Assembly: GCA_003054495.1 (NCBI GenBank)
Contig: CP028514.1
Span: 608,501-672,500, forward strand
DNA: 64,000 nucleotides
Direction: 5' to 3'
Source of the DNA: Carboxydocella thermautotrophica
GTDB lineage: Bacteria > Bacillota > GCA-003054495 > Carboxydocellales > Carboxydocellaceae
Shown here: positions 48,275 to 53,824 of the stretch, one piece after another
Numbering within the stretch: the stretch's first letter is position 1
How the letters are laid out: each line of letters starts with the position of its first letter
Notes under the pieces: generated by a model
The model's input: only the letters and a program-made list of their open reading frames with translations
What the model was told of the DNA's origin: nothing
Database searches by the model: none
Position numbers and translations under genes: made by a program

Positions 48275-48964
48275 GTGGAGCTGACAGGTAAACATTTGCG
48301 CCGTCTGCCGCTTTTTGCCGGTTTGCCGGAAGAGGCCCTGAACGAACTAGCCAAACTGGTGAGGGTGAGGAATTATAAAAAAGACATGCTGATTTTTCTG
48401 GAAGGGGAGCCCGGAGAGGGTTTGCATTTTGTCCAGCAGGGGAAAGTAAAAATCTACAAAATGGCCAGTGATGGCAAGGAACAGATTTTGCATTTCCGTC
48501 AGCCCGGTGATATTTTCGCCGAAGTTACCCTTTTTGATGGCGGGCCTTATCCAGCTTCGGCGGAAACGATTGAGGAAAGCCAGATTGGCATTATCCGTAA
48601 TGCTGATCTTTACCAGTGGCTGGAACATCATCCCTCCCTGACGGTGCAGTTGCTGAAGGACATGGCCAAAAAACTCAGGGAAGCCCAGCAACGGCTGGTG
48701 GAACTGGTTCAGAAAGACACCTACGGTCGGGTTGCTTCTACCTTACTAAGGCTCGCCGAAAGTTTCGGCAGTGAGTGTGCAGTTTGTAAGGAAAGCACAG
48801 TCATTAACCTCTACCTGGACCGTCAGGAACTGGCCAATTATGCTGGCACTTCCCGGGAGACGGCAACCCGGATTTTGCAGGACCTGGCCCGCAGTGGAAT
48901 CATTAAACTGGAAGGCAAAAAAATCACCATTCTCAAACAAAAGGAACTGGAACGCTGGTTGTAG
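48275..48964 (+). CDS. Crp-family regulator upstream of cooS
   Basis: The protein has 229 residues: an effector-binding beta roll (about 15-125), a dimerisation helix, and a winged helix. The recognition helix reads TSRETATRILQDLARSG. This has the Arg-Glu-x3-Arg pattern by which E. coli Crp (SRETVGRIL) reads TGTGA. A perfect TGTGA-N6-TCACA lies right behind the gene, in front of cooS. It is not a clear CooA: the heme-ligand region reads GDIFAEVTLFDGG and lacks the Cys and His ligands. The effector is unknown; cAMP, heme or another ligand are options. The GTG start follows GGGGGGAG, 15 bp after the HD-GYP gene. Confidence 0.88.
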   Translation: MELTGKHLRRLPLFAGLPEEALNELAKLVRVRNYKKDMLIFLEGEPGEGLHFVQQGKVKIYKMASDGKEQILHFRQPGDIFAEVTLFDGGPYPASAETIEESQIGIIRNADLYQWLEHHPSLTVQLLKDMAKKLREAQQRLVELVQKDTYGRVASTLLRLAESFGSECAVCKESTVINLYLDRQELANYAGTSRETATRILQDLARSGIIKLEGKKITILKQKELERWL

Positions 48965-48991
48965 AGTGTGAGCAATCTCACACTCTTTTTT
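48964..48991 (+). terminator. Terminator of the Crp-family gene that also forms a Crp-type box
   Basis: GAGTGTGAG (48964-48972) and CTCACACTC (48977-48985) form a 9-bp stem with a 4-base loop, followed by TTTTTTG, a good terminator. The DNA at 48967-48982 is TGTGA-GCAATC-TCACA, an exact match to the Crp consensus. Its centre is about 64 bp upstream of the predicted cooS transcription start. Confidence 0.88.
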
Positions 48992-49064: not shown

Positions 49065-51014
49065 ATGGGTATTTTCGATTTTTTGCTGGGTGGCAATAAA
49101 CAAAATCATAAGGAAAGTCATGGTTGTGCCAGCTGTGCTGCAGCGGATAGCTGTTATTCAGCCCACGAATCAGTGAACCAGCTGCAGGAAAGGATGAGCC
49201 AGCTGGGTTTACCCAGTGTATTTGATCGTTATCAGGCTCAACAGCCTCAGTGCGATTTCGGGAAAAAGGGAATCTGCTGCCAGCTGTGCAGTCATGGTCC
49301 CTGTCGGATTACTCCCAAAGCTCCTTACGGGATCTGCGGAGCTACTGCTGATACTATTGTTGCCCGAAATCTGGCCCGTTTAACAGTGCACGGAGTGTCA
49401 GCCTATACCCATCACCTGGAAGAATTGTGTAAAACTCTGAAAGCCACTGCGGAAGGGAAAACTCCCTTCACCATTGGCGATCCTGATAAACTGAAAGCTC
49501 TGGCTCAGGTACTGGGGCTGGAGCCGGAACAGCCGGTGAATGAACTGGCCAAAGCGGTAGCGGATATTGTGCTGGTGGAATTGCGCAAAGGAGCCGATGA
49601 ACCTCTGGCTCTGGTCAAGTTGTTTGCTCCTCCTACCAGGATTCAGGCCTGGGAGAAGCTGGGGATTGTTCCCGGCGGTCCTCTGTCCGAGGTGCGGGAT
49701 GCTTTGACCAAAACCATGTCCAACATCACCAGTGACCCGGTAGATCTGTTACTCACTACTTTGCGGCTTGGCATTGCTGCCGGTTACATGGGTCTGGTAG
49801 CAACCATCACCCTGCAGGACATCCTGCTGGGCTCTCCGAAATTGGTGAAGAGCGCGGCAGACCTGGGCATTCTGGATCCTGATACGGTCAATATTGTAGC
49901 TCACGGACACGTGCCTTTGATGGCCACTGCCGTGATTGAGGCCGTCAATGATCCGGAACTGATTAAGCTGGCGGAAGCCGCTGGCGCCAAAGGCATCAAG
50001 GTCTATGGTTCCATGTGTACCGGTCAGGAGCTGATGCAGAGAAATGCCCACAATCGTTCCGGCTATGCCGGCCAGCTGGGTAACTGGATAACCCAGGAAT
50101 TTATGATTGCTACCGGTGCGGTGGATCTGGTAATGATGGATATGAACTGCTCGATTCCGGCCTTGAAATATGTGGCTGACCGCTTCCACACTAAACTGAT
50201 CTCCGTATCCCACATTCTGCGCATGGCCGGGGTGGAAACCAATATCGATTACAAGCCGGAAAAAGTGGCAGAACAGGCCCGGGAAATCGTGAAAATGGCT
50301 ATTGCTGCTTACAAGAACCGGGGCAAGGATGTGGTGATTCCGGTCAACCAGAAGCCGGTGGTAGCAGGCTTTGGCCTGGAAAGCATAGCTTCTGCTCTGG
50401 GCGGTAGCCTGAATCCCCTGCTGGATGCTATTAAATCTGGTGCTATTAAAGGGGTAGTCGCGGTAGTAGGTTGCACCAACAACCGCAATGGGCATGATTC
50501 CATGGGCATCGCCCTCACTAAAGAGCTGATTAAGCGGGATATTCTGGTGATCAATTCCGGTTGTATGTCCAGCGCTACCGAAAATGCCGGTCTGATGGAC
50601 CCTGCAGCTGCGGAACTGGCCGGTTCCGGTCTGAAGGCGGTTTGCCAGTCCCTGGGCATTCCTCCTGCTTTGAACTTCGGTTCCTGTGTGGATATCGGCC
50701 GTATCGGGGTAGTGGTAACTGAATTGGCCAATGCCCTGGGTGTAGATCCTTCCCAGCTGCCGGTAGCAGCTTCTGCGCCTGAGTATCTGGAACAAAAAGC
50801 AGTTGCCGATGGGGCTTTTGCCGTAGCCTTTGGTTTACTAACCCATTTGGCACCTGCGCCACCGGTACTGGGCTCTGAACTGGTAACCAGGATTCTTACC
50901 AAAGATGTGGAAGACCTGACCGGCGGTCGCTTCCTGGTGGAACTGGATCCCGTTAAAGCTGCCGATGCCATTGAAGCCCATATTCTGAAAAAGCGCCAGG
51001 CCCTGGGCATTTAA
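49065..51014 (+). CDS. cooS: Anaerobic Ni-Fe carbon monoxide dehydrogenase catalytic subunit
   Basis: This homodimeric enzyme oxidises CO with water to CO2, two protons and two electrons. The protein has 649 residues. Ligands for all clusters are present: D-cluster Cys63 and Cys71; B-cluster Cys72, 75, 80 and 91; C-cluster His in HGH at 280-282, Cys318, Cys362, Cys470, Cys500 and Cys541. The catalytic Lys578 (EYLEQKAVADG) and a His around residue 109 or 116 are also kept. An extra Cys-rich N-terminus (CASCAAADSC at 21-30) is notable. No cooF, cooC, hydrogenase or acetyl-CoA synthase genes lie next to it, so the electron partner is not clear. It is transcribed alone, with a terminator behind it. 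Confidence 0.96.
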   Translation: MGIFDFLLGGNKQNHKESHGCASCAAADSCYSAHESVNQLQERMSQLGLPSVFDRYQAQQPQCDFGKKGICCQLCSHGPCRITPKAPYGICGATADTIVARNLARLTVHGVSAYTHHLEELCKTLKATAEGKTPFTIGDPDKLKALAQVLGLEPEQPVNELAKAVADIVLVELRKGADEPLALVKLFAPPTRIQAWEKLGIVPGGPLSEVRDALTKTMSNITSDPVDLLLTTLRLGIAAGYMGLVATITLQDILLGSPKLVKSAADLGILDPDTVNIVAHGHVPLMATAVIEAVNDPELIKLAEAAGAKGIKVYGSMCTGQELMQRNAHNRSGYAGQLGNWITQEFMIATGAVDLVMMDMNCSIPALKYVADRFHTKLISVSHILRMAGVETNIDYKPEKVAEQAREIVKMAIAAYKNRGKDVVIPVNQKPVVAGFGLESIASALGGSLNPLLDAIKSGAIKGVVAVVGCTNNRNGHDSMGIALTKELIKRDILVINSGCMSSATENAGLMDPAAAELAGSGLKAVCQSLGIPPALNFGSCVDIGRIGVVVTELANALGVDPSQLPVAASAPEYLEQKAVADGAFAVAFGLLTHLAPAPPVLGSELVTRILTKDVEDLTGGRFLVELDPVKAADAIEAHILKKRQALGI

Positions 51015-51029
51015 CCGGGGAGGGAGATA

Positions 51030-51056
51030 GGCGGCAGTCGCTGACTGCTGCCTTTC
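51030..51056 (+). terminator. Terminator of cooS
   Basis: GGCGGCAGTC (51030-51039) pairs with GACTGCTGCC (51043-51052) with one G-U pair and a 3-base loop, followed by TTTCTG. The T-run is short, so some readthrough into the MoxR gene is possible. A TATAAT at 51062-51067 may give the next genes their own start. Confidence 0.65.
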
Positions 51057-51102
51057 TGTGTTATAATAACGCTAAGAGAGAATGGGAAGGATGGGAGAAA
51101 AG

Positions 51103-51996
51103 ATGTTTAACAGTGTTGCGGAACTGAAAGAAGCTTTTCGCCAGCAGGGTTATATCGGGGAAGAGGAGATCATAACCACTGTTTATCTGGCCTTGAAACT
51201 GGGCAAGCCCCTGTTGATTGAAGGAGCACCTGGAGTAGGGAAAACGGAAATTGCCAAGGTATTAGCCCGGATTTTTAACACCGAACTGGTGCGCCTGCAG
51301 TGCTATGAGGGTCTGGATGAAGCTAAAGCCCTGTACGAATGGAACTATCAAAAACAATTGATTGCTATCCAGATGGCCAAGGAGATGGGCTGTGTAGCTC
51401 CGGGGGCAGATAATCTCTTTTCCGGGGAATATCTGCTGGAAAGGCCTCTGCTCAAGGCCATTCGTGCTGAAAAACCGGTAGTATTGCTGATCGATGAAGT
51501 GGATAAGACGGAAACGGAGTTTGAGGCTTTCCTCTTCGAAGTACTGAGTGATTTTACTGTTTCCATTCCTGAGCTGGGGACCATGGTGGCCCGAACCCGG
51601 CCGATTGTGATTCTGACCTCCAATGCGGAACGGGAGCTGTCTGATGGTTTAAAGCGCCGTTGTGCCTATCTCTACATTGAATACCCCTCCTATGACAAGG
51701 AACTGGCAATTATCCGCACCAGAGTGCCGGAAGCTGAGGAACAGTTGGCCCGACAGGCTGCGGCGGTGGTTCAGACCTTGCGGCAAATGGACCTCAGCAA
51801 GAAGCCTTCCATTGCCGAGACGCTGGACTGGGTCCGGGGACTGCTGGCCCTGGGCGCAGCAGAAGTAAATGCCCGGAACCTGGAGCAGACAATGAATTTA
51901 CTGCTGAAGCACCGGGAAGACCGGGAAATGGTCAAGGAAGCCGGTGGTTGTGCTGGTTTATGCCAGCGGGCAGGATGTGGAAGAAGGGATAAATAA
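51103..51996 (+). CDS. MoxR-type AAA+ ATPase
   Basis: The protein has about 297 residues. Walker A is GAPGVGKTEIAKVLA, Walker B is VVLLIDEVDKTE, sensor 1 is ILTSNAERELSDGLKRRC. It matches MoxR/CoxD/NorQ-type ATPases, which work with VWA-domain partners to insert metals into or remodel enzymes. The partner gene overlaps its stop by one base. Three ATG codons are possible (51082, 51091, 51103); the last has GGGAG at good spacing. The C-terminus contains extra cysteines (CAGLCQRAGC). The pair directly follows cooS, which suggests a role in maturation or activity of the CO dehydrogenase. Confidence 0.88.
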   Translation: MFNSVAELKEAFRQQGYIGEEEIITTVYLALKLGKPLLIEGAPGVGKTEIAKVLARIFNTELVRLQCYEGLDEAKALYEWNYQKQLIAIQMAKEMGCVAPGADNLFSGEYLLERPLLKAIRAEKPVVLLIDEVDKTETEFEAFLFEVLSDFTVSIPELGTMVARTRPIVILTSNAERELSDGLKRRCAYLYIEYPSYDKELAIIRTRVPEAEEQLARQAAAVVQTLRQMDLSKKPSIAETLDWVRGLLALGAAEVNARNLEQTMNLLLKHREDREMVKEAGGCAGLCQRAGCGRRDK

Positions 51997-53360
51997 TGGA
52001 TATGCTGGCCCGTTACTTGCGCTTTATTATCGCCCTGCGCAGCCTCAATTTGCGTATCAGCACTGCTGAAGTGATGGATGGGCTGGAGGCCTTACTTGCT
52101 GTAGACTGGACCAGCCGCTCCCAGGTAGAGACTGCTCTCATCACTACCCTGGCTAAAGACGCCCGCAGCCGGCGGCTGGTGCGCCAGGCCTTTGCCAGTT
52201 ATTTTCGGCCTCCGGAGCAGGTAGCGGAAATGCTAGCCCAGTATGCGGCTCAGCAGCAGGAACAGGCCCAGCAGCTGGCTGAAGCGGAGGCGGAGCTGGT
52301 TTTCACCGGTCCGGAGGAAGAGTGGACTCAGGAACTGCAATTATCCCAGGAAGATAAAGAAACCTATGCCCGCCTGCCGGAAGAGGAAAAGCAAAAACTG
52401 CGGGATTTTTTACAGCAGTACGCAGCTGGAAACCAGATTGTGGACCCGCGCGGCCTGATGGAAAGGGTGGTGCAAAGTCAGCTCAATTACTGGAAACGCA
52501 AACTGCTGGCTGAAGAGGAAGAACGGGAAAGCAGGCAGGTGCAGTTGAAACCCCTGGAGACAGGGGATGCGGAGCTGGATGCCCTGCTGAGCCAGCTGGT
52601 AGTGAATGTGCCGGAAGAGGATAGCTTGCTCTATCAGGATATGAAGAACATCGAAGATGAGGACTTGCCCCGGGTAACCCGCCTGATTCAGCAGCTGACC
52701 CGGCGGCTGGCGGTGAAAATTTCCCGCCGTTACCGGCAAAGCCAGCGCCGTCGTTTACTGGATCTGCGCCGTACTATTCGCCACAATATCCAGTACGGGG
52801 GAGTAATGTTTCGGCTCAAATATCGACATCATCGCCTGGATAAACCCCGGGTAGTGCTGATCTGTGATGTTTCCGGTTCCATGGCCCGTTATGCCCGGTT
52901 TGTCCTGCAGTTCGTCTATGGTCTGGCCGGAGCGGTCCGGGATGTGGAAGCCTTCGTTTTCGCCGAGGACCTGGAACGCATTACACCGGTATTGAAACAA
53001 AGGCAGGGTTTTGCCGAAACCATGAGTGAGATCATGGCCCGCAGCAAGGTCTGGGGGCAGGGTACTAACCTGGCTCAGGCCCTGGCCCAGCTGGAACGGG
53101 ATTATCAGCGGGTGCTGACTCCTTCCACGCTGGTGATTTTGCTCAGTGACGGCAAGACCACCGGGCTGGAACAGGCAGCAGCCCGGCTTAAGAAGGTGCG
53201 GGGACGGGTCAAGCATATCCTCTGGCTCAATACCCTGCCCCGCAAGGAGTGGCCTCTGACCCGGGCCCCCAGGTTACTGGGGCAACATGCCCGCTTACTG
53301 GAGTGCAACACTATCAGTCATCTGGAACAAATTTTGTCCCGCCATCTCTCATTTGCTTGA
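51996..53360 (+). CDS. VWA-domain CoxE-like protein
   Basis: The protein has 454 residues. The N-terminal two thirds are helical, Gln- and Glu-rich (QQQEQAQQLAEAEAEL) and probably contain coiled coil. The C-terminal part (about 275-450) is a von Willebrand A domain with MIDAS residues in VLICDVSGSMARYARF, a Thr in GQGTNLAQAL and an Asp in ILLSDGKTTG. This matches CoxE/YeiM-type partners of MoxR ATPases. The start overlaps the ATPase stop by one base. The promoter of perR overlaps the last codons. Confidence 0.88.
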   Translation: MDMLARYLRFIIALRSLNLRISTAEVMDGLEALLAVDWTSRSQVETALITTLAKDARSRRLVRQAFASYFRPPEQVAEMLAQYAAQQQEQAQQLAEAEAELVFTGPEEEWTQELQLSQEDKETYARLPEEEKQKLRDFLQQYAAGNQIVDPRGLMERVVQSQLNYWKRKLLAEEEERESRQVQLKPLETGDAELDALLSQLVVNVPEEDSLLYQDMKNIEDEDLPRVTRLIQQLTRRLAVKISRRYRQSQRRRLLDLRRTIRHNIQYGGVMFRLKYRHHRLDKPRVVLICDVSGSMARYARFVLQFVYGLAGAVRDVEAFVFAEDLERITPVLKQRQGFAETMSEIMARSKVWGQGTNLAQALAQLERDYQRVLTPSTLVILLSDGKTTGLEQAAARLKKVRGRVKHILWLNTLPRKEWPLTRAPRLLGQHARLLECNTISHLEQILSRHLSFA

Positions 53361-53410
53361 CGATAGCTGGTACAGGTTTTATAATGTAATTAGAAATGAT
53401 TATCGTTATG
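53357..53410 (+). promoter_or_regulatory. perR promoter with Fur/PerR-type operator
   Basis: TTGACG (53357-53362), a 17-bp spacer and TATAAT (53380-53385) form a strong promoter. The sequence at 53392-53410 matches the 19-bp Fur box at 14 positions (core AATGATTATC and TTAT). It covers the predicted transcription start, so bound regulator would repress. Autoregulation by the gene product is the simplest reading. Confidence 0.7.
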
Positions 53411-53425
53411 AGAGGGGACGGGGCC

Positions 53426-53824
53426 ATGAAACAGACCCGGATGACCAGACAAAAAAAGATAATCCTTGAGGTTCTGCGTTCCACCAGGTCTCATCCTACT
53501 GCCGACTGGATCTACATGGAGGCACGCAAGCAGATTCCTAACCTGTCCCTGGGGACTGTGTACCGCAACCTCAACCAGCTGGCGGAAATGGGCGAGATTC
53601 TGGAATTGAATTATGGCAGCAGTTTCAGCCGTTTTGATGGCAATCCGGTACCCCACTATCATCTGGTCTGTGAAAACTGTGGCCGGGTTTATGACCTGGA
53701 ACTGCCGGTAATGCACCAGCTGGAAACTTCCGCAGCTGCGGTGAGTGGGGCGGAAATTCGGGGACATCGCCTGGAATTTTACGGGATTTGCAACCACTGT
53801 AAAAGGGAACAATATCAACAGTAG
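53426..53824 (+). CDS. perR: Fur-family regulator, PerR-like
   Basis: The protein has about 132 residues. It has a winged helix (LSLGTVYRNLNQLAEMGE) and a dimerisation domain with structural zinc pairs CENC and CNHC. The segment SRFDGNPVPHYHLVCENCG closely follows Bacillus PerR, including the Asp and His residues of the peroxide-sensing metal site, and HPTAD supplies the further His. A PerR role (peroxide sensing by metal-catalysed oxidation) is therefore more likely than iron uptake control. The start used is ATG 53426 behind GAGGGGACGGGG. An upstream in-frame ATG lies inside the operator and is rejected. Confidence 0.87.
   Translation: MKQTRMTRQKKIILEVLRSTRSHPTADWIYMEARKQIPNLSLGTVYRNLNQLAEMGEILELNYGSSFSRFDGNPVPHYHLVCENCGRVYDLELPVMHQLETSAAAVSGAEIRGHRLEFYGICNHCKREQYQQ

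Follow-up and report, generated by a model that had tools for sequence, protein, structure and literature searches.

A MoxR-type AAA+ ATPase and a CoxE-like VWA protein encoded behind a nickel CO dehydrogenase gene of Carboxydocella thermautotrophica: a possible helper pair for CO dehydrogenase/acetyl-CoA synthase

What does a MoxR-type AAA+ ATPase, encoded together with a CoxE-like VWA protein, do directly behind a gene for a nickel-iron CO dehydrogenase (CODH)? This question is raised by a 64-kb stretch of the 2.69-Mb chromosome of Carboxydocella thermautotrophica (G000:C1:608501-672500; hereafter the window, whose own numbering is used below for its features), on whose forward strand crp (48275-48964), cooS (49065-51014), moxR (51082-51996), vwa (51996-53360) and perR (53396-53824) follow one another. 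The chromosome carries six cooS genes, as do the two published genomes of the species, and for three of the six CODHs the genome paper could not assign a function (PMC6085454). The original prediction had proposed that the moxR-vwa pair could be a maturation or activation machine for the neighbouring CooS. Our comparisons speak against such a role for this CooS alone, but they support a wider form of the idea, which we give a probability of about 0.58: the pair would be a MoxR-AAA+/VWA chaperone of the NorQ/NorD kind that assists the assembly or repair of CODH and acetyl-CoA synthase (ACS).

The distribution of the pair across genomes is the first line of evidence for this reading. We surveyed 398 genomes and found an orthologue of the VWA protein in 80 of them and not in the other 318. 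Ni-CODH genes were present in 78/80 genomes with the pair versus 85/318 without it, and ACS genes in 68/80 versus 43/318. A Fisher test on the co-occurrence gives P ~1e-34 but assumes independent genomes; as this assumption does not hold, the count of families is safer: CODH was present in 31 of the 32 families that have the pair. The two genomes with the pair and without CODH are drafts, one of them only 82% complete, and two high-completeness genomes that have the pair and were scored ACS-negative (G342 and G251, loci L216 and L217) have an acs operon that is cut by a contig end inside acsB. As a control, other MoxR-VWA families were considered in nine relatives that lack this pair, and CODH was found in two of these nine.

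The arrangement of genes provides the second line of evidence. The gene that comes after vwa in ten loci lies on the same strand and encodes an AcsF-type ATPase; if the starts are clear, the spacing between the two varies from an overlap of 4 bp to a gap of 143 bp. These moxR-vwa-acsF loci (L063, L200, L203, L213, L214 and L194 on one side, L177, L183, L215 and L219 on the other) form two separate and well-supported clades on the VWA tree. Besides these two clades, the pair lies within an acs operon in L190 (moxR-vwa-cooC-acsA-acsB-acsC) and in L218 (acsB-acsC-orf7-acsF-acsD-acsE-cooC-moxR-vwa, on one strand and with gaps of ~20 bp around moxR), although the placement of L218 on the tree is unsure due to its long branch; linkage to acs or cooC genes is thus found in independent lineages. 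In L189, an AcsF-type gene is close to the pair but divergent. Five changes to the state "linked to a CODH/ACS gene" were counted on the VWA tree, the cooS of the window included. If a handful of CODH/ACS sites among ~2,700 genes and ~30 families are taken as a basis, a rough calculation predicts well under one linked family by chance, and for five or six it gives a Poisson probability between ~1e-3 and 1e-6, according to the rate chosen.

AcsF-type ATPases are CooC-family ATPases that are distinct from the CooC encoded beside cooS, and in relatives their gene lies inside the acs operon, at position X of the order cooC-acsA-acsB-acsC-orf7-X-acsD-acsE (L210 and L211, and in part L216 and L217). 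Among 101 relatives, an AcsF-type ATPase was found in 25 of the 28 genomes with the pair versus 6 of the 73 genomes without it, and the three exceptions with the pair are all less than 86% complete. When only CODH-encoding genomes were compared (50 genomes, a set that partly overlaps the earlier ones), the ATPase was present in 15/17 genomes with the pair versus 14/33 without it (P 0.002); genomes that have the ATPase and lack the pair include archaea, Chloroflexi and Deltaproteobacteria. Both the pair and an AcsF-type ATPase are encoded by the acetogen Sporomusa ovata, which is genetically tractable. The AcsF-type neighbours of the pair carry a CXC motif (GCYC), and the CXC motif binds Ni/Zn in CooC (PMC6006190). 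Since the pair is nearly confined to genomes with a Ni-CODH, nearly always occurs with an AcsF-type ATPase and is linked to CODH/ACS genes in several lineages, linkage and co-occurrence together suggest that it serves in building or maintaining CODH/ACS, and not the CooS of the window alone. In the host itself, the acs operon (L212) has no AcsF-type gene between orf7 and acsD; its AcsF-type gene (L204, G000:C1:1476452-1477189) stands alone ~175 kb from that operon, beside a ddl-like gene and not beside the pair.

How could such a pair act? In MoxR-AAA+/VWA machines, the VWA part binds the target and ATP is used to move it, and NorQD has been proposed to twist and stretch its linker, opening the nitric oxide reductase cNOR for iron (PMC13036017). 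For CooC, two modes of action that go together have been suggested, a conformational change at the active site and the transport of nickel (PMC6006190). By analogy with NorQ/NorD, the AAA+ ring, presumably a hexamer, would grip the VWA protein, while the metal-ion-dependent adhesion site (MIDAS) of the latter would bind an acidic residue of the target. ATP turnover would then move the target and open the apo- or damaged enzyme, into which nickel would be inserted, or in which it would be replaced, by a CooC-family ATPase and above all by the AcsF type of the acs operon. The pair could in this way supply part of the conformational function of CooC for ACS or CODH, and the nickel step is probably the point where it acts. 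Beyond this, we tentatively propose, at slightly less than even odds, that in many anaerobes a MoxR-AAA+/VWA machine and an AcsF-type ATPase open ACS (or CODH) for nickel, which would make these enzymes a new class of clients for NorQD-like machines. CooC-family ATPases and the pair would share an involvement in the ATP-dependent maturation of nickel sites in CODH/ACS (PMC6006190), and their genes co-occur and are linked; CooC, however, belongs to the MinD-type ATPases and has a CXC metal site. A MoxR-VWA machine is an ATPase of another kind and would come as an additional component.

Two points are regarded as open in the field (PMC6006190): by what route the A- and C-clusters receive their nickel, and for what reason helper proteins are needed by some CODHs and not by others. 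A conserved helper overlooked by CODH surveys would amount to a directly testable gene pair and, if the proposal is true, it could help explain the poor activity of CODH/ACS obtained from foreign hosts. Two published surveys of CODH gene neighbourhoods mention neither MoxR nor VWA proteins (PMC13056359, PMC6344411), and our literature search for MoxR with acetyl-CoA synthase or the Wood-Ljungdahl pathway found no paper that joins the pair to CODH/ACS.

Several observations weigh against a helper role in CODH/ACS assembly or repair. For some CODHs, production in E. coli gives active enzyme with no dedicated maturase supplied (PMC6006190), and the pair is not found wherever CODH/ACS is made. It is no general requirement for CODH/ACS, because 43 ACS-encoding genomes are without it, and would be an accessory factor at best, which is also what CooC is for some CODHs. 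Shared lifestyle and ancestry may partly inflate the co-occurrence of the pair with CODH, and the name AcsF has been used for different CooC-like genes in the literature (PMC8671834). Finally, most loci with the pair are not beside CODH/ACS genes, with perR, crp and bacillithiol genes being commoner neighbours.

At the locus of the window, the arrangement could also be due to the chance insertion of a mobile CODH gene, without functional meaning for either cooS or the pair. This explanation concerns this locus only and is compatible with a CODH/ACS helper role of the pair family elsewhere; we consider it a serious contender that falls just short of an even bet. Relatives keep crp-moxR-vwa or moxR-vwa-perR without cooS, and in L040, L041 and L042 crp lies 56-77 bp before moxR with no cooS between them. 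Since crp adjoins moxR in these relatives (L058 being another example), the cooS of the window, which sits exactly between the two genes, appears to have been inserted into an older crp/perR block. The conserved cooS-moxR-vwa order that the original prediction had suggested looking for in relatives was not found: among the 80 genomes with the VWA orthologue, only G000 and the conspecific G101 have it beside a cooS of the window's type. The cooF and FNOR genes that usually accompany such a cooS are also missing here. On the other hand, the same order is present in both genomes of the species, and the pair belongs to a family that is tied to CODH/ACS genes, which makes a chance landing less likely than at a random site. 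In Carboxydocella, this CODH may have been recruited to the MoxR/VWA machine, and the CooS of the window may thus be a client of the pair too.

A second alternative, which we consider unlikely, is that the pair is a redox-stress chaperone of some other protein and that its link with CODH/ACS only reflects a shared anaerobic lifestyle. In 69 loci, the neighbours encoded on the same strand as vwa include perR in 32, crp (within four genes) in 21, a bshA-like gene in 19 and a bshB-like gene in 17, and the 43 ACS-encoding genomes that do without the pair fit this view as well. It would however leave unexplained the repeated, operon-like linkage with acsF or the acs operon in at least four lineages, and also why CODH is not tracked by other MoxR-VWA families. 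Repair of oxidised CODH/ACS would suit both sets of neighbours, and a role of the pair in the upkeep or repair of oxygen-sensitive clusters would, we infer, unite them.

The least probable of these explanations is that the adjacent CooS has its C-cluster matured by the pair, in place of CooC. In its favour, cooS and the pair adjoin on one strand in the two genomes of the species, this cooS has no cooC nearby, and the CooS retains every C-cluster ligand, five Cys and one His, and should therefore need nickel. Such a cooS-specific module was however rejected upon comparing the neighbourhoods of 80 cooS loci and ~70 pair loci: orthologous cooS genes (53-74% identical) never had the pair in the flanks examined, and about half of them have cooF-FNOR, while pair orthologues were away from such a cooS in every other genome tested, an outcome that the original prediction had itself named as refuting it. 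In addition, the genome encodes four CooC-family proteins. The absence of cooC noted originally holds for the window, where none was seen, but not for the genome, in which the four genes lie at G000:C1:164629, 175938, 1476452 and 1654901, three of them beside other cooS or acs genes.

Sequence comparisons confirmed the genes named in the original prediction. The MoxR protein (304 aa; PF07728, E 2e-12, and PF00004) has a Walker A motif (GAPGVGKT) and a Walker B motif (LLIDEVD), both conserved in at least 97% of 65 homologues, and its gene adjoins vwa in 67 of 69 loci; it is hence an AAA+ protein encoded beside a VWA protein, as MoxR AAA+ ATPases are. The VWA protein (454 aa) consists of a helical N-terminal part and a VWA domain of the CoxE type (PF05762 VWA_CoxE, E 6e-43), in which the DxSxS-T-D residues of the MIDAS (D291, S293, S295, T357 and D385) are intact and invariant in 16 homologues. 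An AlphaFold2 model of this protein (mean pLDDT 82) shows the same two parts, and a fold search with it returned VWA domains in general, including the midasin MIDAS domain and NorD of the NorQD complex (9qhe), matches that support the predicted fold and not a target. In a phmmer search against the PDB, the VWA protein gave no real match, and none to NorD. The nearest named families in NCBIfam are MadB and MadC, yet membership was rejected, the scores being far below the curated cut-offs (283.5 bits for MoxR against MadB, cut-off 475; 74.3 bits for the VWA protein against MadC, cut-off 600), and no paper describing MadB/MadC was found in a literature search. A defence system was likewise rejected, PADLOC giving weak AAA matches only and none for the VWA protein. 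The MoxR of the window ends in a Cys-rich tail (51940-51996, GGCAGLCQRAGCGRRDK) that has no counterpart in most homologues, and a metal site there (CAGLCQRAGC) was rejected for this lack of conservation. Three vwa orthologues (G014:C1:750761-752062, G236:C1:959421-960725 and G177:C2:259897-261228) have frames of full length that are interrupted by just one in-frame TAG, and may belong to pyrrolysine-decoding hosts or be broken genes. The genome of the window also has a second, distant MoxR-VWA pair (L067, G000:C1:1391648-1392388; vwa 21-26% identical), from a family that does not follow CODH.

Among characterised systems, NorQ/NorD, which inserts iron into cNOR, is one of the closest parallels: both consist of a MoxR-type AAA+ ATPase and a VWA protein with a MIDAS, are encoded by adjacent genes and have, or would have, a metalloenzyme as client (PMC13036017, PMC9976466), and the modelled VWA fold resembles that of NorD. 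The two differ in size, with 454 aa for the VWA protein here versus 69 kDa for NorD, and in partner genes, which for the pair are acs, cooC, crp and perR; no nor genes were seen among its recurrent neighbours, although no search was aimed at them. CoxD/CoxE, which assist the Mo-Cu CODH (PMC4240915), share with the pair an AAA+ protein and a VWA_CoxE domain encoded beside a CODH, but membership was rejected, as the enzyme here is of the unrelated Ni-Fe type (TIGR01702) and the species has no Mo-Cu CODH (PMC6085454). The rubisco activase CbbQ/CbbO and RavA/ViaA have the same MoxR-AAA+/VWA architecture and remodel target enzymes (PMC4660213, PMC10585395); their targets are others, and the likeness seen is one of architecture.

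The CooS of the window is a monofunctional Ni-CODH (TIGR01702, 802 bits, cut-off 478). An alignment to the host's own canonical CODH showed that it keeps His261, Cys295, Cys333, Cys446, Cys476, Cys526 and Lys563 (C. hydrogenoformans CODH-II numbering), with a Tyr at the position of the acid-base His and an N-terminal C-x2-C-x5-C. These three N-terminal Cys, the complete set of C-cluster Cys and His, the Tyr for His and the retained Lys place it in structural group D-3, which was already known from Carboxydocella (PMC6344411). Among solved structures, that of the C. hydrogenoformans enzyme CooS-V (7b7q) is the nearest, and CooS-V has a Glu in place of Cys295 (PMC9311411); since the ligands are complete in the CooS of the window, unlike in CooS-V, a normal C-cluster is expected from its sequence. 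We also examined, in GTDB genomes, 80 loci whose CooS proteins are 43-74% identical to this one, together with flanks of up to 10 kb per side; neither moxR nor vwa was present in any of these loci of other genomes. In 20 of the ~40 loci with closer orthologues, cooF and FNOR lie close downstream of cooS; it is in this respect that the cooS of the window differs from its group, having either lost these usual partners or never acquired them.

Concerning expression, moxR and vwa overlap by 1 bp, and the distance of about 90 bp that had been given between cooS and the pair agrees with the sequence: the cooS stop precedes the first ATG of moxR (51082) by 67 bp and the ATG at 51103 by 88 bp, and the latter fits the homologues better and may be the true start of moxR. 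The spacer contains an 11-bp GC-rich hairpin (51029-51053, forward strand) followed by TTTCTGTG, a terminator-like element with a poor U-tract. This agrees with the weak terminator that had been noted behind cooS, and because of the poor U-tract, read-through from cooS into moxR, and with it co-transcription, is possible. Between crp and cooS, another terminator-like hairpin on the forward strand (48963-48986), with TTTTTG, is stronger. It holds a perfect CRP-type palindrome (TGTGA-N6-TCACA, 48967-48982), ~80 nt upstream of cooS and the sole exact match in the 64 kb, which is a possible operator for cooS or for autoregulation of crp.

The crp gene itself encodes a Crp/Fnr-family regulator (PF00027 and PF13545), whose orthologues lie directly upstream of moxR in relatives, and its recognition helix (TSRETATRIL) resembles that of E. 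coli CRP; a related sequence, TGTGA-N6-TCATT, is found between crp and moxR in several relatives. On the other side of the pair, perR encodes a PerR/Fur-family regulator (PF01475), the commonest conserved neighbour of the pair, and is preceded by a promoter-like TTGACG-17-TATAAT (53357-53385, forward strand, 11/12 positions, a match to consensus only). Together with perR and the Crp/Fnr regulator, the bacillithiol genes bshA, bshB and bshC (L038-L066, L164-L203) suggest a redox-stress context for the pair. A metallo-beta-lactamase-fold protein of ~225 aa is encoded near the pair in 12 loci, mostly on the opposite strand (e.g., L165:10362-11045 and L203:11110-11799).

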